Assembly (NCBI RefSeq): GCF_036240795.1
Contig: NZ_CP108454.1
Span: 5,888,001 to 5,952,000 of the forward strand
DNA: 64,000 nucleotides
DNA from: Streptomyces sp. NBC_01268
Lineage (GTDB): Bacteria > Actinomycetota > Actinomycetes > Streptomycetales > Streptomycetaceae
Reading direction: 5' to 3'
Part shown: positions 5,436-38,354 of the stretch, in pieces
Layout: each line of letters opens with the position of its first letter
How positions within the stretch are numbered: position 1 is the first letter of the stretch
Notes under the pieces: generated by a model
Told to the model about the DNA's origin: nothing
The model's database searches: none
What the model saw: the letters and a program-made list of their open reading frames with translations, nothing else
Program-made: the position numbers and the translations under genes

Positions 5436-8400
5436 ATGGGTGCGATCACGGACGTCTGTGCGATGCTCGGCGCCGTGGAGACCAAGTCAGTGAGCCCCGT
5501 GTTCGTCGGCCGGGCCGGCGAACTCACCGCCCTCACCGAGGCGCTCTCCCGCGCGACCGCGGGAGAGCCCCAGGCCCTGCTCGTCGGGGGCGAGGCCGGG
5601 GTCGGGAAGACCCGCCTCATCGAGGAGTTCACCGCACTCGCCCGCACCCAGGGCGCGGTCGTCGCCGTCGGCGGCTGCGTCGAGATCGGCGCCGACGGGC
5701 TGCCCTTCGCACCCTTCTCCACCGCCCTGCGCGCGCTGCACCGCCGCCTCCCCGAGGAGCTGGCCGCCGCCGCCGACGGGCACGAGGGCGAACTCGCCCG
5801 CCTCCTCCCGGAGTTCGGCGACGTCACCCACCACGAGCCGGCCGCCGAGGACTCCACCGCCCGCCTCTTCGAGCTGACCGTACGGCTCCTGGAGCGCATC
5901 GCGGCCGACCGCACCGTCGTCCTCGTCCTGGAGGACCTGCACTGGGCCGACGCCTCCACCCGGCACCTCCTCGCCTACCTCTTCCGCACCCTGCACCGCG
6001 GCCGCATCGTGGTCGTCGCCACCTACCGCGCCGACGACATCCACCGCCGCCACCCGCTGCGCCCGCTCCTCGCCGAACTGGACCGGCTGCGCTCCGTCCG
6101 GCGCATCGAGCTCGCCCGCTTCACCCGCACCGAGGTGCACCGCCAGCTCACCGGCATCCTCGCCGCCGAACCCAGCCCCGTCGTCCTCGACGAGGTCTTC
6201 GAACGCTCCGACGGCAACGCCTTCTTCGTCGAGGAGCTCATCGCCTCCCACGAGTGCGGCACCGCCCTCGGCTCCCTCAGCGAATCCCTCCGCGACCTCC
6301 TCCTGGTCCGCGTCGAGGCCCTGCCCGACGACGCCCAGCGCGTCGTCCGCGTCGTCGCCGAGGGCGGCTCCACCGTCGAGTTCGACCTGCTCGCCGCCGT
6401 CGCCCGGCTCGCCGAGGACGAGCTCATCGAGGCCCTGCGCGCCGCCGTCGGCGCCAACATCCTGCACGCCGCGCCCGACGGCGACGGCTACCGCTTCCGG
6501 CACTCCCTCGTCCGCGAGGCCGTCAGCGACGACCTGCTGCCCGGCGAGCGCTCCCGGCTCAACCGCCGCTACGCCGAAGCCCTGGAAGAGGACCCCGGCC
6601 TCGTCCGCGCCGACGCCCGGGCCAACCGGCTCGCCACGTACTGGTACCACGCCCACGACGCAGCCCGTGCCCTGCCGGCCGTCCTGCGCGCCTCCGTCGA
6701 GACCCGCAAGCGCTACGCCTACGCCGAGCAACTGCGGCTGCTCGAACGGGCCATGGAACTCTGGGACGACGCCCCCGCCGACATCCGCCGCGACCTGCGC
6801 CCCATGGACTACGCCGAGGCCTACCCTTCCTGCGGCTGCGACCCCGACACCCCGCTGAGCTACCTCGACCTGCTCGCCGAGGCCGCCGTCGCCGCCCGCC
6901 TCTGCGGCGAACGCGAACGCGCCCTGAAGATCGGCAAGATGGCCCACCGGCTGCTCGACGGCGCCGAGGACGACGACCCGCTGCGCTCCGCCTGGTTCTG
7001 GGTCGAGCGCGCCCGGCTCCAGTCCAACCTCGCCCGCGGCGACGGCTGGGACGAGATCGCCCGCGCCCAGGACCTCGTCCGCGGCCTGCCGCCGTCCGCC
7101 GTCCACGCCGTGGTGCTCGCCTTCGCCGCCGGCTGGGGCATGCTCCGCAACCCGGGCGCCGACGCGCTCGCCGCCGCCGAACGGGCCGTCGAGTACGCCC
7201 GCCTGGTCAAGGCCGAGGGCACCGAGCTCGCCGCCCGGCTCACCCTCGGCACCATCATGGTCTCCGCCGGAGACATCGAGGACGGGCTCGCCGAGATGCG
7301 CGAGGTGGGCGAACGGACCCTGGCGCTCGGCCAGTTCCACGAGGCCTCCCGCGCCGCCGTGAACATCTCCTCCGCCCTGGAGGGACTCGGCCGCTCCCGC
7401 GAGGCCGTCGAGGTCGCCACCGCCGGGATCGCCATGGCCCGCTCCCACGGCCTGGTCGACAGCGCCGGCTGGGTCCGCGCCAACCTCGCCGAGTCGCTCC
7501 TCTCGCTCGGCGAGTGGGACCGCGTCCAGGAGGAGTGCGAACTGCTGCTGCGCACCGGGGCCGCCGGCTCCAAGCCGGGCGGCACCGCCCTGCTCCAGCT
7601 CGCCCACCTCGCCGTCGGGCGCGGTGAGCCGGCCGCGGCCGCCGCCCGCCTCGCCGAGGCCGCCGCCCGCTACGGCACCCGCGACCCGATCCCGCAGTAC
7701 ACGCTGCCCATGACGCACCTGACGACCGCCGTCGCCGCCGCCGAGGGCCGGCTCGCCGACGTCCGCGCCGAGCTCGCCGCGGTGGCCGCGGCCGGCTTCC
7801 CGGCCGGCACCCACCGCTACGGCTGGCCGTTGGTCCTCGTCGCCGTCACGGCCGAGGCGGACGCCCGCGGCCTGCCGGCCGCCGCCGAGGGCCGCGCCGC
7901 CGCCCTGGACGCGGTACGCCGCTGCGTCCGGTCGCTGGCCGCCCAGGCGCCCGTGTGGCAGGCCTACGGCCTCCAGGTCTCCGCCGAGCTGGCCCGCGCC
8001 GAGGGCCGGGACACCGCCGAGCGCTGGGCCGAGGTCGTCGCCGCCTTCGCGGAGCTGGACCGGCCCCACGAGCTGGCCCGGGCCCGGCACCGGCTCGCCG
8101 ACGCGCTGCTCGCCGAGGGCGGCCGGCGCGAGGAGGCCGCCGCCCCGATGCGCGAGGCCCACGCCACCGCCGTACGCCTCGGGGCGCATCCGCTGCGCGA
8201 GGACGTCGAGCTGCTCGCCGCCCGCGCCCGCCTCCCGCTGCGGGCTCCCGAGGGGGCCGACGGCCCTGCGGAGCCGGAGGACGAGGCCGCGGACGCCTTC
8301 GGGCTCACCCCGCGCGAGCAGGACGTGCTGCGGCTGGTCGCCGAGGGGCGGACCAACCGCCGGATCGCCGAGGAGCTGTTCATCTCACCGAAGACGGCGA

Positions 8401-30990: not shown

Positions 30991-32424
30991 CTAGGACTCC
31001 GAGTCCACCAGGACGCCCGGGACGGTCTCCGTCCCGGGCGTCCGCCGTGCCGGGGACGGCGTCAGCACCGCGTACAACGCGCCGCCGACGATCCCCGAGA
31101 AGACGAAGCTGCAGTCGATCCCGCCGGTCAGCGCGAGCAGCGGGCCCTCGTAGAGCGGCGTGGACACCGCCGCCAGGCCGACCGCCGCGCCGATCGCCCA
31201 GGAGGCGGTGGCGCGCGGGTGCCAGCCGGCCGCGTACCAGTAGACGCCGCCGCGCGAGCGCCGGTTGTAGACCTGGAGCGCCTCCGCGTCGTACCGGCCC
31301 CCGCAGCGCACGTGCCCGATCAGGGTGATCACCGCCCAGGGCGTGCCGATCGCGGTGAGCAGCAGCACGAACGAGGTCATCGCGGTCTGCGCGTCCGAGG
31401 CGAAGTGGCCGAGGAAGACGAAGGCGGTGGCCACCGCCGCCACGACCAGCGTGGCCCGGGCCCGGGTCGCCCTCGGCAGGATCGCGTCGAGGTCCAGGCC
31501 CATCGAGTAGAGCATGAGACCGGCGTTGCCGACCGAGCCGGCGGTCGCCGCGATCAGCAGCGGGACCAGGTACCAGACAGGCGAGGCCGCGACCAGCGGC
31601 CCGGCGTACTCCACGCCGCCGCGGGCCGCCAGCGCCGTGTACGTGCCGAAGAGCTGAGGGATCAGCAGGCCGACGACGAGGCCCAGGCAGGTGGCGCGCC
31701 AGACCTTCTTCGGGCTGTGCTTCGCGGGCGAGATGTAGCGGGTGTAGTCGCCGAGCAGGGTGATGAACGCGACCGGCCCGCTGAGCCCGGCCGCGACCGC
31801 GGCGAGCAGCCAGGTCGGCCAGAACGAGCCCAGCAGATACGGGGTCTCCGGCACCGCGGCGGTGGTGAAGTCACCGGCGTACGCGACGAGTCCGAGCCCG
31901 AGCAGCAGGGTCATGCCGATGGCGAGGGCCTGGCTCAGCTTCAGCAGCAGGCGGTAGCCGTAGACCGCGCCGACCACGGTGAGCGCGGCGAGCAGGGCGT
32001 ACACGAGGGTGTGCGCCAGACCGCCGGTCGGCAGGCCGACCAGGCGCTCCAGGGTGCCCACCATCACGTCGCCGCCGATCCACAGGGTCAGCGCCGTGTA
32101 GCCGAGCGACAGCAGCAGGCCCACCACCGAGCCGACGAGCCGGCCGCGGACGCCGAAGAAGGCGCCGGAGGAGGTGGAGAGGTTGGTGGCGGTGCGCAGC
32201 GAGATCAGCGCGAGCGGGGCGGTGACGGCCACGCCGACGAGCGTGCCGGTGACGACCGAGGTGACCGAGGCCCACAGGCCGAGCCCGAAGGACACCGGCA
32301 GCCAGCCGAAGACGATCACGCCGAGGCAGAGGTTGGAGCCGAGCAGGATCGAGACGAGGTCGCGCGGACCGCTGGTGCGTTCCGCTTCGGGGATGGTGTC
32401 GACTCCGCGCTGTTCTATCGCCAT
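30991..32424 (-). CDS. NCS1-family permease (cytosine/purine/allantoin type)
   Basis: The 477-residue protein has about 12 membrane helices and belongs to the nucleobase:cation symporter-1 family, which imports cytosine, purines, hydantoins or allantoin. Family segments include SILLGSNLCLGVIVFGWLP (first helix), GRLVGSVVGLLLSLGY, GPVAFITLLGDYTRYISP with the Thr-Arg-Tyr pair of the family, and GNAGLMLYSMGLDLDAIL. It is divergent from the urease-like operon, 151 bases between starts, and both promoters are covered by the same duplicated 17-bp palindrome. That suggests it brings in a nitrogen compound handled by the neighbouring enzymes. The exact substrate is not visible in the sequence. Confidence 0.88.
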   Translation of the reverse strand: MAIEQRGVDTIPEAERTSGPRDLVSILLGSNLCLGVIVFGWLPVSFGLGLWASVTSVVTGTLVGVAVTAPLALISLRTATNLSTSSGAFFGVRGRLVGSVVGLLLSLGYTALTLWIGGDVMVGTLERLVGLPTGGLAHTLVYALLAALTVVGAVYGYRLLLKLSQALAIGMTLLLGLGLVAYAGDFTTAAVPETPYLLGSFWPTWLLAAVAAGLSGPVAFITLLGDYTRYISPAKHSPKKVWRATCLGLVVGLLIPQLFGTYTALAARGGVEYAGPLVAASPVWYLVPLLIAATAGSVGNAGLMLYSMGLDLDAILPRATRARATLVVAAVATAFVFLGHFASDAQTAMTSFVLLLTAIGTPWAVITLIGHVRCGGRYDAEALQVYNRRSRGGVYWYAAGWHPRATASWAIGAAVGLAAVSTPLYEGPLLALTGGIDCSFVFSGIVGGALYAVLTPSPARRTPGTETVPGVLVDSES

Positions 32425-32471
32425 GGGGTCTCCTGGGGGAGGGGCGGGGCAGGGGGGGCGTGGGGGGTGAA

Positions 32472-32557
32472 TTTAGAGCGACGCTCAATGTGACCCACGT
32501 GAACTACGGACGTCAATGTTTGGAACCTGTGGTTCCAGCATTTAGAGTGTCGCTCAA
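32472..32557. promoter_or_regulatory. Twin 17-bp operators between permease and urease-like operon
   Basis: TTTAGAGCGACGCTCAA (32472-32488) and TTTAGAGTGTCGCTCAA (32541-32557) match at 15 of 17 bases, each with a GAGCG/CGCTC-type palindromic core. Between them lies a perfect inverted repeat TGGAACC-TGT-GGTTCCA (32521-32537). The second copy lies 18 bases before GTG 32576, close to the AGGAGG ribosome site (32560-32565). The TetR gene at 36315 is a candidate binder. Confidence 0.7.
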
Positions 32558-32575
32558 ACAGGAGGTGTTTGGCAC

Positions 32576-33376
32576 GTGCGACTGACCCCCACGGAACGCG
32601 ACCGGCTGCTGCTCTTCGGTGCCGCCGAGCTCGCCCGCGCCCGCCGGGCGCGGGGTCTGCGGCTCAATGTCCCCGAGGCGACCGCGCTCATCGCGGACAC
32701 CGTCTGCGAGGCGGCCCGCGACGGCAAGCGACTCGCCGAGGCGATCGAGGCGGCCCGATGCGTCCTCGGCCCCGAGGACGTCCTGCCGGGCGTCGCGGAC
32801 GTCGTCACGGAGGTCCACGTCGAGGCCGTCTTCGACGACGGTTCACGGCTCGCGGTGGTCTCCGCGCCCATCGGCGGCGGCTCCCTCGGGGAGCGGGCGC
32901 CGGGCGCGCTGCTGCCGGGGCCCGAGCACGCCGACCGCGAGCCCGACCTGCTGCTCCGGGTCCGCAACACGGCGGCGGTGCCGGTCAGCGTGACCTCGCA
33001 CTTCCATTTCTTCGAGGCGAATCCGCGTCTCGCGTTCGACCGTGCGGCGGCGTACGGGATGCGGCTGGCGATTCCGGCGGGTGCGTCGTTCCGTTTCGAC
33101 CCGGGTGGCGAGGCCGAGGTGGGTCTGGTCCCGATCGGGGGTGCGCGGGTGGCGATCGGTTTCGCGGGTCTGGTCGACGGTCCGCTCGACGCCCCGGGGG
33201 CGAAGGAGGAGGCCCTGCGCAGGGCCGCGGCCTGCGGCTACCTGGGCGCCGGACCCGGTGCGCCGGGCACGCCGGACGGCCCCGGCACGTCCGCCGCCCC
33301 GGGCGCGCCTGGTGCGTCCGGCACGTCCGCCGACCCCGGCACGCCCGGTGACGCGTCCACCGAGGAGGAGAGCTGA
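32576..33376 (+). CDS. ureAB: Fused urease gamma-beta subunit (UreAB-like)
   Basis: The 266-residue protein joins a urease gamma-type domain (residues 1-100, RLTPTERDRLLLFGAAELAR) to a beta-type domain (about 105-225, with VRNTAAVPVSVTSHFHFFEANPRLAFDR and MRLAIPAGASFRFDPG). Gamma-beta fusions occur in some bacterial ureases such as Helicobacter. A low-complexity tail of about 40 residues rich in Gly, Ala, Pro, Ser and Thr follows, which is absent from standard subunits. The GTG start lies 10 bases after AGGAGG. The stop overlaps ureC (TGATG, 33374-33378). The pair should form the structural frame of a urease-like enzyme; whether urea is the substrate is uncertain. Confidence 0.9.
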   Translation: MRLTPTERDRLLLFGAAELARARRARGLRLNVPEATALIADTVCEAARDGKRLAEAIEAARCVLGPEDVLPGVADVVTEVHVEAVFDDGSRLAVVSAPIGGGSLGERAPGALLPGPEHADREPDLLLRVRNTAAVPVSVTSHFHFFEANPRLAFDRAAAYGMRLAIPAGASFRFDPGGEAEVGLVPIGGARVAIGFAGLVDGPLDAPGAKEEALRRAAACGYLGAGPGAPGTPDGPGTSAAPGAPGASGTSADPGTPGDASTEEES

Positions 33377-35058
33377 TGGATCCCTACGAGTACGCCTCCG
33401 TGCACGGACCCCGTGCCGGCGACCGGGTCGTCCTGGGCGACTCCGGCCTCGTCGTCCGGGTCGAGTCCGACTCCCAGAGGCCCGGCGACGAGTTCCTGGC
33501 CGGCTTCGGCAAGACCGCCCGCGACGGACTCCTCCTGAAGGCCGCCGCGGTCCGCGAGACCTGCGACGTCGTCATCAGCAACGTGCTGGTGATCGACGCC
33601 GTCCTGGGCATCCGCAAGGTGTCCATCGGCATCCGCGAGGGACGCATCCACGCGATCGGCCGGGCCGGCAACCCCGACACCCTCGACGGCGTCGACGTCG
33701 TCGTCGGCACCGGCACCTCGATCGTCTCCGGCGAGGGCCTGATCGCCACCGCCGGTGCCGTGGACACCCATGTGCACCTGCTGTCGCCGCGGATCATGGA
33801 GGCCTCGCTCGCCAGCGGCGTCACCACCATCATCGGCCAGGAGTTCGGCCCCGTCTGGGGCGTGGGCGTCAACTCCCCCTGGGCGCTGCGGCACGCCTTC
33901 AGCGCCTTCGACGCCTGGCCGGTCAACATCGGCTTCCTCGCGCGGGGTTCGTCCTCGGACCCGGCCCCGCTGGTGGAGGCCCTTGCCGAGGGCGGCGCGT
34001 CCGGTTTCAAGGTGCACGAGGACATGGGCGCCCACACCCGGGCCCTGGACACCGCCCTGCGGGTCGCCGAGGAACACGACGTGCAGGTCGCGCTCCACAG
34101 TGACGGGTTGAACGAGTGCCTGTCGGTCGAGGACACCCTGAGCGTCCTGGAGGGGCGCACGATCCACGCCTTCCACATCGAGGGCTGCGGCGGCGGACAC
34201 GTACCGAACGTCCTGAAGATGGCGGGCGTGCCGAACGTCATCGGCTCCTCCACCAACCCCACGCTCCCCTTCGGACGCGACGCGGTCGCCGAGCACTACG
34301 GCATGATCGTCTCCGTCCACGACCTGAAGACCGACCTGCCCGGCGACGCCGCCATGGCACGCGACCGGATCAGGGCCGGGACGATGGGCGCGGAGGACGT
34401 CCTGCACGACCTCGGCGCCATCGGCATCACCTCCTCCGACGCCCAGGGCATGGGCCGCGCCGGCGAGACCGTCCGACGCACCTTCGCCATGGCCGGCAAG
34501 ATGAAGGCCGAGCTCGGCCCCCTCGAAGGCGACGGCGCGCACGACGACAACGCGCGCGTGCTCCGCTACATGGCCAAGCTGACCATCAACCCGGCGATCG
34601 CCCACGGCCTCTCCCACGAGATCGGCTCCATCGAGGTCGGCAAGATGGCCGACCTCGTGCTGTGGCGGCCCGAGTACTTCGGCGCCAAGCCCCAGATGGT
34701 GCTCAAGTCCGGCTTCCCCGCGTGGGGCGTCACCGGCGACCCGAACGCCGCCACCGACACCTGCCAGCCGCTCGTCCTCGGCCCGCTGTTCGGCGCCCAC
34801 GGAGCGACCCCGGCCGACATCTCGGTCGCCTTCGTCGCCCAGGCCGCCGTCGACCTCGGCTCCGACCGGATGCCGACCCGCCGCCGCCGCGTCCCCGTGC
34901 GCGGCACGCGCGGCATCGGCCCGGGGAACCTGCTGCTCAACTCCCGGATCGGCGACGTCCAGGTCGACGGCCACAGCGGCCTCGTCTCGCTGGACGGCTC
35001 CCCGATCCGCTCCGAGGCGGCCGAGTCCGTCTCCCTCAACCGCCTCTACTTCCTCTGA
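33376..35058 (+). CDS. ureC: Urease alpha-like subunit with altered flap
   Basis: The 560-residue protein aligns along its length with urease catalytic subunit UreC. Nickel ligands are kept: HVH in AVDTHVHLLSPR, the carbamylated Lys in FKVHEDMGAH (residue 212) with its following His, LHSD, FHIEGCGGGH, and Asp in ITSSDAQGMGR. The mobile flap differs: the usual VCHHLD is SVHDLK, so the flap Cys is Val314, the first His is kept (His315) and the next His is Asp316. The stretch after the HVH motif, GQEFGPVWGVGVN, also differs from the common GGTGPAAGT, and the Ala after the Asp ligand is Gly. No ureD, E, F or G genes are nearby. It may hydrolyse a substituted urea, or use maturation genes elsewhere. 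Confidence 0.9.
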   Translation: MDPYEYASVHGPRAGDRVVLGDSGLVVRVESDSQRPGDEFLAGFGKTARDGLLLKAAAVRETCDVVISNVLVIDAVLGIRKVSIGIREGRIHAIGRAGNPDTLDGVDVVVGTGTSIVSGEGLIATAGAVDTHVHLLSPRIMEASLASGVTTIIGQEFGPVWGVGVNSPWALRHAFSAFDAWPVNIGFLARGSSSDPAPLVEALAEGGASGFKVHEDMGAHTRALDTALRVAEEHDVQVALHSDGLNECLSVEDTLSVLEGRTIHAFHIEGCGGGHVPNVLKMAGVPNVIGSSTNPTLPFGRDAVAEHYGMIVSVHDLKTDLPGDAAMARDRIRAGTMGAEDVLHDLGAIGITSSDAQGMGRAGETVRRTFAMAGKMKAELGPLEGDGAHDDNARVLRYMAKLTINPAIAHGLSHEIGSIEVGKMADLVLWRPEYFGAKPQMVLKSGFPAWGVTGDPNAATDTCQPLVLGPLFGAHGATPADISVAFVAQAAVDLGSDRMPTRRRRVPVRGTRGIGPGNLLLNSRIGDVQVDGHSGLVSLDGSPIRSEAAESVSLNRLYFL

Positions 35059-35077
35059 CCCGCTAGGACCGCAGCCC

Positions 35078-36094
35078 ATGACGTACCGCATGCCCGCCGA
35101 GTGGACCCGCCACGAGCGCACCTGGATGGCCTGGCCCAGCCCCAACCCGACCTTCACCGACGCCGAGGAGCTCGCCGAGGCGCGGACCGCCTGGGCCTCC
35201 GTGGCCCGCGCCGTGCGCCGCTTCGAGCCGGTCACCGTGGTGGTCGGCCGAGGCGACGCCGACTCCGCCCGCGCCCTCCTCGGCGCGGACGTCGACCTCG
35301 TCGAGCGCGAGCTGGACGACGCCTGGATGCGCGACATCGGTCCGACCTTCGTCACCGACGGCACCCGCCTGGCCGCGGTCGACTGGGTGTTCAACGGCTG
35401 GGGCGGCCAGGACTGGGCGCGCTGGGAGCACGACTCCAAGATCGCCCGCCATGTCGCCGACGCGGCCGGCGTCCCGGTCCTGTCCTCCCCGCTCGTCAAC
35501 GAGGGCGGCGCGATCCACGTCGACGGCGAGGGCACGGTCCTCCTCACCGACACCGTCCAGCTCGGCCCGGGCCGCAACCCCCAGTGGACCCGCCTCCAGG
35601 TCGAGGAGGAGATCCACGCGAAGCTGGGCACCACCAAGGCGATCTGGCTCCCGCACGGCCTGGCCGGCGACTACGGCCTGTACGGCACCCAGGGCCACGT
35701 CGACATCGTCGCCGCGTTCGCCCGCCCCGGCACCGTCCTGGTCCACAGCCAGCAGGACCCGGCCCACCCGGACCACGGGCGCTCCCGGCTCTACGTCGAC
35801 CTCCTGCGCGGCCAGACCGACGCCCAGGGCCGCCCCCTGGAGGTCATCGAGGTCCCGGCCCCGACCGTCCTGAAGGACGAGGAGGGCGACTGGGTCGACT
35901 ACTCGTACATCAACCACTACCTGTGCAACGACGGCGTGGTCCTCTGCGCCTTCGACGACCCGCACGACGAGGTCGCGGCGGAGATCTTCCGCGGTCTCTT
36001 CCCGGAGCGGGAGGTCGTGCTGGTGGACGCGCGCACGATCTTCGCGGGTGGTGGGGGCATCCACTGCATCACGCAGCAGCAGCCGGCGGTCTGA
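35078..36094 (+). CDS. aguA: Agmatine deiminase
   Basis: This 338-residue enzyme of the guanidino-modifying (pentein) superfamily converts agmatine to N-carbamoylputrescine and ammonia. It has the five-blade pattern with RELDDAWMRDIGPTFVTDG (about residues 75-93), LVNEGGAIHVDGEG, the catalytic His in YGLYGTQGHVDIVAAF, and the catalytic Cys in GGGGIHCITQQQP (about residue 330). Length is normal for bacterial AguA. It starts 19 bases after ureC and is surely co-transcribed. No N-carbamoylputrescine amidase (AguB, nitrilase family), the usual partner, is in the window. A related peptidylarginine-type role is unlikely. Confidence 0.93.
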   Translation: MTYRMPAEWTRHERTWMAWPSPNPTFTDAEELAEARTAWASVARAVRRFEPVTVVVGRGDADSARALLGADVDLVERELDDAWMRDIGPTFVTDGTRLAAVDWVFNGWGGQDWARWEHDSKIARHVADAAGVPVLSSPLVNEGGAIHVDGEGTVLLTDTVQLGPGRNPQWTRLQVEEEIHAKLGTTKAIWLPHGLAGDYGLYGTQGHVDIVAAFARPGTVLVHSQQDPAHPDHGRSRLYVDLLRGQTDAQGRPLEVIEVPAPTVLKDEEGDWVDYSYINHYLCNDGVVLCAFDDPHDEVAAEIFRGLFPEREVVLVDARTIFAGGGGIHCITQQQPAV

Positions 36095-36171: not shown

Positions 36172-36247
36172 GGCGGGGTCGTAGCACAGAGGTAATGCGC
36201 CGCGATGGCATCTCGGAGGACGCCGGTTCGAATCCGGTCGCCCCGCC
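36172..36247 (+). tRNA. Atypical tRNA, anticodon GGC (Ala-like)
   Basis: The D loop (AGAGGTA), anticodon loop ATGGCAT with T33 and anticodon GGC at 36207-36209, the variable loop AGGAC, and a standard T loop TTCGAAT (36228-36234) with its 5-bp stem are all present. The acceptor is odd. If T8-A9 are bases 36182-36183, the 5' strand GGCGGGGTCG (36172-36181) pairs with CGCCCCGCC (36239-36247) as nine pairs interrupted by one bulged T (36179). The anticodon stem has a C-T mismatch at 36203/36213. CCA is not encoded (CCC follows). The anticodon loop equals that of alanine tRNA-GGC, but the acceptor is not of that type, so charging is uncertain. Confidence 0.7.
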
Positions 36248-36314
36248 CCCTTCTCTCCCCGGCCGGTCCGCCTTCGGGCACGGACCCCTCGGCCGGATCA
36301 TGTAGAACGTACGA

Positions 36315-36944
36315 GTGAGTCAGAGCAACGACCCGACCCCCCACCCCCGCCGCCGCAACCAGGCCGCCCCGCCCCGCGAGGACGTGCTCGCCGCCGCCAT
36401 GGACACCATCGCCGAGCGCGGGCTCGACGGGCTGACCATGGCCGGGCTCGGGCGCCAGGTCGGGATGAGCAGCGGGCACCTGCTCTACTACTTCCGCACC
36501 AAGGACGAGCTGCTGCTGCGCACCCTGGAGTGGAGCGAGGGGCGGCTCGGCGCCGAGCGCAGCGCGCTGCTGTCCGGACCGGGGACCGCACGGGAGCGGC
36601 TCGACGGCTACGTGGACGTGTACGTGCCGGTGGGGCCGCGCGACCCGCACTGGACGCTGTGGCTGGAGGTCTGGAACCGGTCGCAGAACGCCGACGACGA
36701 CGCCCGGGCCCGGCAGGCCGCCATCGAGGGCGCCTGGCACCGGGACCTGGTGGCGATCCTGGCCGAGGGCGTCTCGCGCGGTGAGTTCCGGGCCGTCGAC
36801 CCGGACCGCTTCGCGCACCGGATGCGGGCCCTCCTGGACGGCTTCAGCGTCCACGTCGCGGTCGGCATCCCCGGCACCGGACGGGAGCAAGTCCTGGGCC
36901 ACGTAAGGGAGTTCGTCGAGCAAACCCTGATCGCGCGATCTTAA
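36315..36944 (+). CDS. TetR-family transcription regulator
   Basis: This 209-residue regulator has an N-terminal helix-turn-helix (LDGLTMAGLGRQVGMSSGHL, then YYFRTKDELLLRTLEW, residues 36-75) and a C-terminal domain resembling the BetI group, with WTLWLEVWNRSQ and FRAVDPDRFAHRMRALLDGF. GTG 36315 is used; TAGAAC ends 6 bases before it and no ribosome site exists, a layout seen at other starts here. It lies between the urease-like/agmatine deiminase operon and an MHS transporter. BetI-like regulators often answer to amines, so it may control the twin operators at 32472-32557, but this is only inference. Confidence 0.9.
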   Translation: MSQSNDPTPHPRRRNQAAPPREDVLAAAMDTIAERGLDGLTMAGLGRQVGMSSGHLLYYFRTKDELLLRTLEWSEGRLGAERSALLSGPGTARERLDGYVDVYVPVGPRDPHWTLWLEVWNRSQNADDDARARQAAIEGAWHRDLVAILAEGVSRGEFRAVDPDRFAHRMRALLDGFSVHVAVGIPGTGREQVLGHVREFVEQTLIARS

Positions 36945-37019
36945 GGCACGTAAGTACTCCCGATCGTTGTGCGGTGCGGCCTTGTTGGCGACGCGCTTCC
37001 TCCGGCACGGTTCCTGCCC

Positions 37020-38354
37020 ATGGGACGAGAGCACTGGAAGAAGATCTGGGTCGGTTCTGCGGGCAACATGGTCGAGTGGTTCGACTGGTTCGTCTACGCC
37101 AGCTTCGCGACCTACTTCGCGGGGGCGTTCTTCCCCGAGGGCAACGACACCGCCAAGCTGATGAACACCGCCGGCATCTTCGCCGTCGGCTTCTTCATGC
37201 GCCCGGTCGGCGGCTGGCTCCTCGGCCGGGTCGCCGACCGCAAGGGCCGCAAGACCGCGCTGACCCTCACGGTGACGCTGATGTCCGCCTCGGCCGTCCT
37301 CATCGCCGTCGCCCCCACCTACGCCGTCGCCGGATACGGCGGCGCGGCCGTCCTCCTCGTCGCCCGCCTGCTCCAGGGGCTCTCCGTCGGCGGTGAGTAC
37401 GCCGCCAGCGCCACCTACCTCACCGAGGCCTCCGCCCCGGAGCACCGCGGCTTCGCCTCCAGCTTCCAGTACGTGTCGATGACGGCCGGCCAGATCGTCG
37501 GCCTGGGGCTCCAGATCGTCCTCCAGCGCACCATGTCCGCCGAGGCCCTGCACAGCTGGGGCTGGCGCATCCCCTTCATCGTCGGCGCCCTCGGCGCGGG
37601 CGTCGTCTTCTACCTGCGCCGCACCATGCTGGAGACCGAGGTGTACGAGGAGTCCGCCGACTCCGGGGTCGCCCGCGGCGAACAGGGCACCCTCAAGGCG
37701 CTGTGGGCGCACCGGCGCGAGGCCTTCCTGGTCGTCGCGCTCACCATGGGCGGCACCGTGGCGTACTACACGTACACCACCTATCTGACGAAGTACCTGT
37801 CCAACTCCGCCGGGCTGCCCAAGCAGACCGCCACCCTGGTCTCCTTCTGCGCGCTGATCGTCTTCGCCTGCCTCCAGCCGCTCGCCGGCCGCCTCTCCGA
37901 CCGGATCGGGCGCCGCCCGCTGCTCATCACCTTCGCGGTCGGCTCCACCCTCCTGACCGTCCCGATCATGACGATGCTCCGGCACGCGGGCTCCTTCTGG
38001 CCGGCCCTCGGCCTCTCCCTGCTCGCGCTCGTCGTGGTCACCGGCTACACCTCGATCAACGCCTGTGTGAAGGCCGAACTCTTCCCGACCGGCATCCGCG
38101 CCCTCGGCGTCGCCCTGCCGTACGCGATCGCCAACGCCCTCTTCGGCGGCACGGCCGAGTACGTGGCGCTCTGGTTCAAGGACGCCGGGATCGAATCCGG
38201 CTTCTTCTGGTACGTGGCGGGCTGCGCGGCGGTCTCGCTGGTCGTCTACCTCACGATGCGCGAGACCCGCGACATCGACCTGGGCCGGGTGGGCGGCGCC
38301 GTGCCGTCCCAGCGGGCCGACGGACCGGAGAAGGCGTCCGCCGCGGCGTCCTGA
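37020..38354 (+). CDS. MFS transporter, metabolite:H+ symporter family
   Basis: The 444-residue protein has 12 predicted membrane helices and belongs to the metabolite:H+ symporter branch (KgtP/ProP-like), which imports dicarboxylates, betaines or similar small acids. Typical are NMVEWFDWFVYASFATYFA in helix 1, GRVADRKGRKTAL between helices 2 and 3, RLLQGLSVGGEYAASATYLTE in helix 4 and GRLSDRIGRRPLLIT between helices 8 and 9. ATG 37020 is preferred over upstream codons because the product then starts directly before helix 1. It follows the TetR gene by 75 bases. The substrate cannot be assigned. Confidence 0.92.
   Translation: MGREHWKKIWVGSAGNMVEWFDWFVYASFATYFAGAFFPEGNDTAKLMNTAGIFAVGFFMRPVGGWLLGRVADRKGRKTALTLTVTLMSASAVLIAVAPTYAVAGYGGAAVLLVARLLQGLSVGGEYAASATYLTEASAPEHRGFASSFQYVSMTAGQIVGLGLQIVLQRTMSAEALHSWGWRIPFIVGALGAGVVFYLRRTMLETEVYEESADSGVARGEQGTLKALWAHRREAFLVVALTMGGTVAYYTYTTYLTKYLSNSAGLPKQTATLVSFCALIVFACLQPLAGRLSDRIGRRPLLITFAVGSTLLTVPIMTMLRHAGSFWPALGLSLLALVVVTGYTSINACVKAELFPTGIRALGVALPYAIANALFGGTAEYVALWFKDAGIESGFFWYVAGCAAVSLVVYLTMRETRDIDLGRVGGAVPSQRADGPEKASAAAS

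Follow-up and report, generated by a model that had tools for sequence, protein, structure and literature searches.

In the 8.5-Mb single-contig genome of Streptomyces sp. NBC_01268, a stretch of 64,000 nucleotides (positions 5888001-5952000, hereafter the window) carries adjacent genes for fused urease gamma and beta subunits (UreAB), a homologue of the urease alpha subunit (UreC) and a homologue of the agmatine deiminase AguA, faced by the gene of an NCS1-family permease (Table 1). Open reading frames and Pfam matches confirm this gene set as described in an earlier sequence-based annotation (the original prediction), which had proposed that agmatine deiminase supplies N-carbamoylputrescine to a urease-like enzyme acting in place of AguB. 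With a 1-nt overlap between ureAB and ureC and 19 nt from ureC to the start of the AguA gene, the three genes are probably co-transcribed; the operon is flanked by leuB-ilvE on one side and a gene for citramalate synthase on the other. Judged by gene content, its counterparts in S. coelicolor would be SCO5525-5527. In PMC3293853, SCO5525-5526 carry the name ureABC and SCO5527 is counted with the arginine decarboxylase pathway homologues; neither SCO5525-5526 nor these homologues, gabT excepted, are reported there to have reacted to arginine or ArgR.

Table 1. Genes and repeats of the urease-like locus and its immediate surroundings (positions within the window).
Feature	Position	Strand	Assignment
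NCS1-family permease	30991-32424	(-)	PF02133, 289.6 bits; divergent from ureAB
Operator-like palindromic repeat, copy 1	32471-32488	(+)	
Operator-like palindromic repeat, copy 2	32540-32557	(+)	starts 69 nt past the start of copy 1
UreAB, fused urease gamma and beta	32576-33376	(+)	PF00547 and PF00699; NF009671, 313 bits (cut-off 243)
Q-type UreC (urease alpha homologue)	33376-35058	(+)	PF00449 and PF01979
AguA-family deiminase homologue, short linked clade	35078-36094	(+)	PF04371
TetR/BetI-like regulator	36315-36944	(+)	Pfam match; candidate repressor at the putative operator
MFS transporter adjoining the TetR gene	36969-38354	(+)	membership of the system uncertain

The UreC of the window scores 735.6 bits with the subfamily model NF009686 (cut-off 354) and 634.5 bits with the equivalog TIGR01792 (cut-off 680). 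It had been described as altered, rightly so: an alignment of 136 UreC proteins separates 100 with Gln at position 155 and Glu or Asp at 156 (window numbering; Q-type) from 35 canonical rows with Gly at 156 preceded by Gly or Ala, and one odd row. In Q-type proteins the motif GGGxGP has become Q[E/D]xGPxW, the window protein showing the signature Q155-E156, W161, C271, V314 and G358. The ligands of the bimetal site are all present in the window UreC (H132, H134, K212, H241, H267 and D355), and they are kept in 100/100 Q-type rows together with H214, H315 and R333, the equivalents of the catalytic His222, His323 and Arg339; by our own matching of the numbering, the nine correspond to His137, His139, Lys220*, His222, His249, His275, His323, Arg339 and Asp363 of the Sporosarcina pasteurii enzyme. 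The UreC of locus L166 (genome G1040) has Met-Gly at the position of Q155-E156 and no match to EGxGGGH, and possibly represents a third type of pocket.

Around this conserved centre the pocket has been rebuilt. Trp161 is found in all 100 Q-type rows, the loop after GP has 10 residues in all of them as against 14 in 28/35 canonical rows (making the Ala170 loop 4 residues shorter), the site of Ala366 is occupied by Gly (Gly358) in 100/100 rows where 30/35 canonical rows have Ala, and the flap Cys (Cys322 site) is retained in 3/100 Q-type as opposed to 31/35 canonical rows. Urea in complex with urease has its Ni(2)-bound nitrogen held by the Ala170 and Ala366 carbonyls and its distal nitrogen by the Gly280 and Ala366 carbonyls (PMC7433671); according to our own mapping, Ala170 would fall inside the shortened loop. 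With all ligands kept and both the Ala170 loop and Ala366 altered, the metal site is retained and the amine side of substrate recognition altered. On this ground, and from its persistence without UreD and UreF and its deiminase neighbours described below, the Q-type enzyme is probably not a urea-splitting urease.

Phylogenetic analysis of actinobacterial UreC (94 of the 136 rows, most Streptomyces being dropped and L166 left out) groups the Q-type sequences (59/94) to one side of a branch whose SH-aLRT support is 98%. Proteobacterial ure(AB)C sequences were not part of our trees; a published tree puts proteobacterial UreC from clusters with accessory genes near the Streptomyces one (PMC2492869). 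The closest named proteins, among the best 120 matches listed, are from Streptomyces and Actinacidiphila. Among 181 Streptomyces species genomes, by our own count on best E-values, 129 have a UreC of the window type (one in two pieces), 41 a UreC of more distant kind only and 11 none. Identity declines from 85% to about 52% in other genomes of the class, Q-type UreC is also present in a second class, and Candidatus Nanopelagicales and Gaiellales are among the relatives. Scanning the species-genome collection with a codon-restricted pattern gave 32 matches, 31 with a UreC homologue and one with none, the 31 being actinobacterial by name except for one uncultured bacterium; L200, which has no homologues, was dismissed as a chance pattern match. 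Two further observations concern individual records: the ureC of Ornithinimicrobium sp. INDO-MA30-4 (L193) is split over two frames (about 7760-7820, minus strand) by a frameshift or a sequencing error and was therefore set aside, and three loci titled as metagenome-assembled genomes of Bifidobacterium breve (L176, L177, L191) resemble those of freshwater Nanopelagicales and are probably mislabelled bins.

Urease is regarded as dependent on nickel chaperones, with rare exceptions. The original prediction had noted the lack of ureD, ureE, ureF and ureG genes. This is true of ureD and ureF within the window, although not of the genome, which has a single UreF, a single UreD and a UreG at about 1.377 Mb (UreE was not searched), near its other UreC (1.378 Mb, 46% identical to that of the window). 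Because the genome has these proteins elsewhere, their local absence says little, and the informative point is that many other Q-type genomes lack any match to either UreD or UreF. Both proteins are absent from the same 23 of 32 genomes with the UreC-like protein, all at least 90% complete, in a count of UreD and UreF that did not include UreG or UreE; the remaining 9/32 carry both. One example without a match is a Streptomyces genome in 6 contigs, 99% complete (G518), which keeps ureAB-ureC-AguA. In the second class UreF is absent from 14/15 Q-type genomes, 4 of the 14 being only 82-87% complete (one genome, G208, belongs to both sample sets), and the fifteenth (G218) has UreF, at a distance of about 2 kb from a canonical ureC that it carries in addition. 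All 5 second-class genomes searched that carry another ureC possess UreF (G218, G1040, G953, G979 and G121), the second ureC of G1040 not having been typed; the search for a second ureC scored the best 3 to 7 candidates in each genome, for which reason its absence was not counted. Among 17 genomes reached through named loci, 16 lack UreF, a set that overlaps in several cases with records already counted and includes L193 with its frameshifted ureC. As far as gene content can tell, Q-type UreC is kept in many genomes without UreD and UreF, which is not what dependence on these chaperones would predict.

These counts bear on two accounts in which the substrate is still urea. Q-type UreC could be an ordinary second urease, matured where possible by the UreDFG proteins of the canonical cluster. 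It shares 46% identity with the other UreC and has kept every ligand, and the literature leans the same way: ure(AB)C is treated as urease in PMC2492869 and PMC5489568, the latter counting it among the urease clusters of urease-positive species, and SCO5525-5526 are listed as urea-utilizing genes (PMC3293853). The lack of UreD and UreF in 23/32 genomes, the changed pocket residues in 100/100 rows and the recurrent linkage to a deiminase described below make such a second urease improbable. The other account, a chaperone-free urease splitting urea that the linked deiminase makes from guanidine or a small guanidine, would explain both the linkage and the loss of accessory genes, and has a precedent in UreAB2 of Helicobacter mustelae, which is reported to work without nickel and accessory proteins (PMC2846917). 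The genome already has a urease, the pocket is rebuilt at the NH2 site, and an Rfam scan of the window and 7 related loci returned nothing but tRNAs at gathering scores, with no riboswitch among them; we regard this account as slightly more improbable still.

A further indication of a different substrate comes from gene linkage, which was counted at loci with the required 600-bp flanks (98/100 Q-type and 32/35 canonical). At 67/98 Q-type loci versus 0/32 canonical loci, the same strand bears an AguA homologue no more than 500 bp away. Most canonical loci have flanks of about 0.7-1.5 kb; at the 6 with long flanks no AguA, Amidohydro_3 or Pot homologue was found. AguA is adjacent at 49/49 main loci of Streptomyces, where it is downstream of ureC, and at 18/49 other Q-type loci (including a few second copies in Streptomyces), and in five cases it is located 3-31 bp upstream of ureAB instead (L099, L100, L152, L153, L155). 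With two gene orders at 67/98 loci and none among canonical loci, UreC-AguA linkage is conserved across genomes of several lineages, as the original prediction would require. AguA-family proteins also occur in 16/32 Q-type genomes versus 3/23 relatives without Q-type UreC, a comparison uncorrected for relatedness in which the 32 genomes had been selected for a high share of loci that lack an adjacent AguA.

Whether the linked protein acts on agmatine is another matter. Its membership of the AguA family holds, and its catalytic Cys, His and Asp are kept in alignment to 1vkp (motifs GHVD and GGGGIHCITQQ), but at 310.9 bits it misses the cut-off of the agmatine deiminase equivalog TIGR03380 (381.8), so the specific name it had been given does not carry over. 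Six members of the linked clade, the window protein among them, score 260-316 bits and two adjacent AguA homologues of other types 252 and 352 bits, compared with 546-574 bits for three canonical AguA proteins of the phylum. The residue four positions before the catalytic His is Gly in 27/27 linked-clade members, while canonical AguA has Glu in 6/8 and Ile or Val in 2/8 (8 of 9 rows being readable) and the Arabidopsis enzyme Asp, and the gate-loop stretch measures 63-70 residues as against 87-88 in the 7/7 canonical rows read. In plant enzymes Asp220 and the gate loop recognise the terminal amine of agmatine, and some bacterial agmatine iminohydrolases have a shorter loop (PMC6447857). Given the scores, the Gly and the short gate loop, agmatine is a possible substrate but no longer the default one.

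Most adjacent AguA homologues fall in a single clade of 30 rows with strong statistical support (100/99), which also takes in seven non-adjacent AguA proteins of Q-type genomes and leaves out the adjacent ones of L071, L112, L114, L115, L152 and L167. As only 4 of the rows in this tree (63 of 108 sequences) come from genomes without Q-type UreC, the restriction of the clade to Q-type genomes is a small contrast. The AguA sequences of L153 and L155 nest among those of Actinomycetes and their UreC lies outside; with the two placements in disagreement, we do not claim that the two proteins strictly share one phylogeny.

The version originally put forward, in which N-carbamoylputrescine formed from agmatine by AguA is split by UreAB-UreC in place of AguB to release putrescine, has several points to recommend it. 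The linked protein does belong to the AguA family, the acidic residue E/D156 could hold a cationic tail, polyamine-type transporter genes lie near divergent members (see below), and L085 or L087 has genes for an aldehyde dehydrogenase and a class III aminotransferase at a distance of about 3-8 kb. The reported lack of AguB also proved correct: no protein of the genome passes TIGR03381 (best score 259 bits, cut-off 410), none of the 5 matches (E <=1e-5) is in the window, and no AguB exceeds the cut-off in any of 18 Q-type genomes, compared with 2/14 control genomes that pass; 9 of the 18 have weaker nitrilase-family matches (E <=1e-30). The gene of the 259-bit protein is one gene away from one that passes as a dihydropyrimidinase, which makes beta-ureidopropionase a likelier function for it than AguB. 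The low scores of the linked clade, its invariant Gly and its short gate loop speak against agmatine, and we consider this specific version unlikely, if clearly less so than the urea-based accounts.

AguA is not the only partner. Within 500 bp at 9/49 other Q-type loci there is a homologue of the Amidohydro_3 family (PF07969; "YtcJ-like"); the family was confirmed at the three loci scanned (L083, L095, L104). These genes sit directly beside ureAB-ureC, in the position of AguA (L083, L092, L093, L095-L098, L103, L104), and may represent a replacement of the deiminase by a non-homologous one; 7 of the 9 genomes have no PF04371 match. The nearest solved relatives, 3icj and 3igh, are uncharacterised and the structural model has a mean pLDDT of 62.5, for which reasons we draw no function for this partner. 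PotABCD-like genes occur within 6 kb at seven loci (L085-L087, L092, L095, L096, L098), and a locus from a metagenome-assembled genome of Tetrasphaera (L178) has homologues of PotA, part of PotD and AguA beside ureAB-ureC. At L095 PotA exceeds its polyamine subfamily cut-off and PotB and PotD stay below theirs, making a polyamine cargo a likelihood only. Second copies of ureAB-ureC in three Streptomyces lie among AguA paralogues, four of them at L114 and L115, whereas L112 has three plus a fragment of a fourth at the locus edge; an oligopeptide-type ABC transporter was identified at L115. The arrangement at these three loci suggests a cluster that deals with a compound bearing several guanidino groups.

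Other surroundings are more varied. At L160, and similarly at L157, L159, L161, L162 and L164, Q-type ureAB-ureC is found within a polA-S1-coaE-transglycosylase string, in genomes without an AguA-family match. At L089 (6993-8978, with homologues at L090 and L091) the Q-type ureC has as neighbours a thioredoxin-like gene and the gene of a CDF transporter that comes closest to the MntE model; we judged this context too thin to point to manganese.

The permease of the window scores only 37.8 bits with TIGR00800 (cut-off 353), and its cargo is therefore left unassigned. Since nucleobases and allantoin are the cargoes given for the NCS1 Pfam family, the enzyme could act on some other amide-type compound imported by the permease, such as a cyclic ureide, AguA being a mere neighbour, and the 16/32 Q-type genomes without an AguA-family match would fit. 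Among L082-L168 an NCS1 homologue was detected at L113 only, and AguA turns up repeatedly, in two gene orders and from several clades, so that we rate this as very improbable, the least credible of the alternatives.

The gap between permease and ureAB holds two copies of an 18-nt palindromic repeat, 89% identical. The shared operators of the original prediction are thus present as repeats, their function as operators being inferred. With 3 mismatches allowed the two copies are the sole matches in the window, a number also reached in 9/100 shuffles, so that positional conservation is the better argument: across the 49 Streptomyces loci, 31/31 matches to the palindromic core fall in a 270-bp segment at the start of ureAB. 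They come from 24/49 loci (7 of the 24 with two copies), the other 25 having no match to the strict core. TetR homologues lie beside some related loci too, and in the window the TetR regulator probably controls both permease and operon through the two palindromes. A tRNA-Ala(GGC) gene (36173-36249) separates the AguA homologue from the TetR gene. Riboswitch control was rejected on the Rfam result given above, and a sigma-70 promoter scan gave no match, which carries little weight in Streptomyces.

Taken together, we propose, at a probability of roughly 0.55, that UreAB-UreC is a chaperone-independent hydrolase of mono-substituted ureas made from guanidino compounds. A guanidino compound would enter the cell through the NCS1 permease in Streptomyces, and other lineages may use an ABC transporter of the polyamine type for it. 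Conversion of R-NH-C(=NH)-NH2 to R-NH-CO-NH2 and ammonia would fall to a deiminase, as a rule the AguA homologue linked to ureC but possibly the Amidohydro_3 enzyme in some lineages, and the urease-like enzyme would then split the substituted urea into R-NH2, ammonia and carbonate. Deimination followed by hydrolysis would explain the linkage, the altered pocket and the retained metal site together. Putrescine is one candidate for the product amine, which makes the version with N-carbamoylputrescine a special case; the general idea of a substituted-urea pathway is strengthened by linkage (67/98 vs 0/32), pocket and missing AguB, even as that particular substrate is weakened.

Several observations weigh against this proposal. 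Neither partner lies within 500 bp at 22/49 other Q-type loci (22/98 overall) and half of the Q-type genomes searched (16/32) have no AguA-family match, so that the partnership with AguA is not obligatory; the loci of one genus lie in a housekeeping gene string, and 9/49 Streptomyces loci have no NCS1 gene in the available flank. Where Streptomyces has a canonical cluster, its UreDFG proteins could serve the Q-type enzyme, the accessory census extended to UreD and UreF only, and N-carbamoylputrescine could be a substrate of some nitrilase that scores below the AguB cut-off. The change of substrate is deduced from sequence comparison, and single pocket differences are not exclusive, Gly occurring at the Ala366 site in 5/35 canonical rows and the flap Cys being absent from 4/35.

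Compared with the urease UreABC of Klebsiella and Sporosarcina pasteurii (EC 3.5.1.5), the proposed enzyme shares the gamma, beta and alpha subunits, the Lys, four His and Asp ligands and the catalytic His and Arg, but differs in its Q-[E/D] motif, short Ala170 loop, Gly366, mostly lost flap Cys, deiminase partner and, in many genomes, lack of UreD and UreF. It resembles UreAB2 of Helicobacter mustelae in being retained without accessory genes (UreD and UreF only here), although UreAB2 is reported as a urease (PMC2846917). In both the proposed scheme and the AguA-AguB pathway, the ureido compound on which a second hydrolase acts would come from a deiminase of the PAD family; unlike in the latter, no AguB exceeds the cut-off (18/18 genomes) and the linked AguA is mostly of a separate, shorter clade. 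Among the papers listed in our searches, which covered few subscription journals, none proposes a substituted-urea role for Q-type UreC in its title or the opening of its abstract.

Urease is regarded as highly specific for urea. If our reading is right, this branch would show how both the specificity and the metallation of urease can change, and "urease subunit alpha" labels in Streptomyces, Candidatus Nanopelagicales and Gaiellales would mislead inferences on the nitrogen cycle drawn from ureC. Actinobacteria would also gain a way of turning guanidino compounds into amines and ammonia; tentatively, at somewhat short of even odds, we envisage a widespread guanidino pathway of actinobacteria in which the second step is taken by a urease homologue re-purposed for substituted ureas, its bimetal site being assembled without nickel chaperones (possibly with Mn, Fe or Zn), and in which unrelated deiminases, of the PAD or the amidohydrolase fold, are interchangeable.

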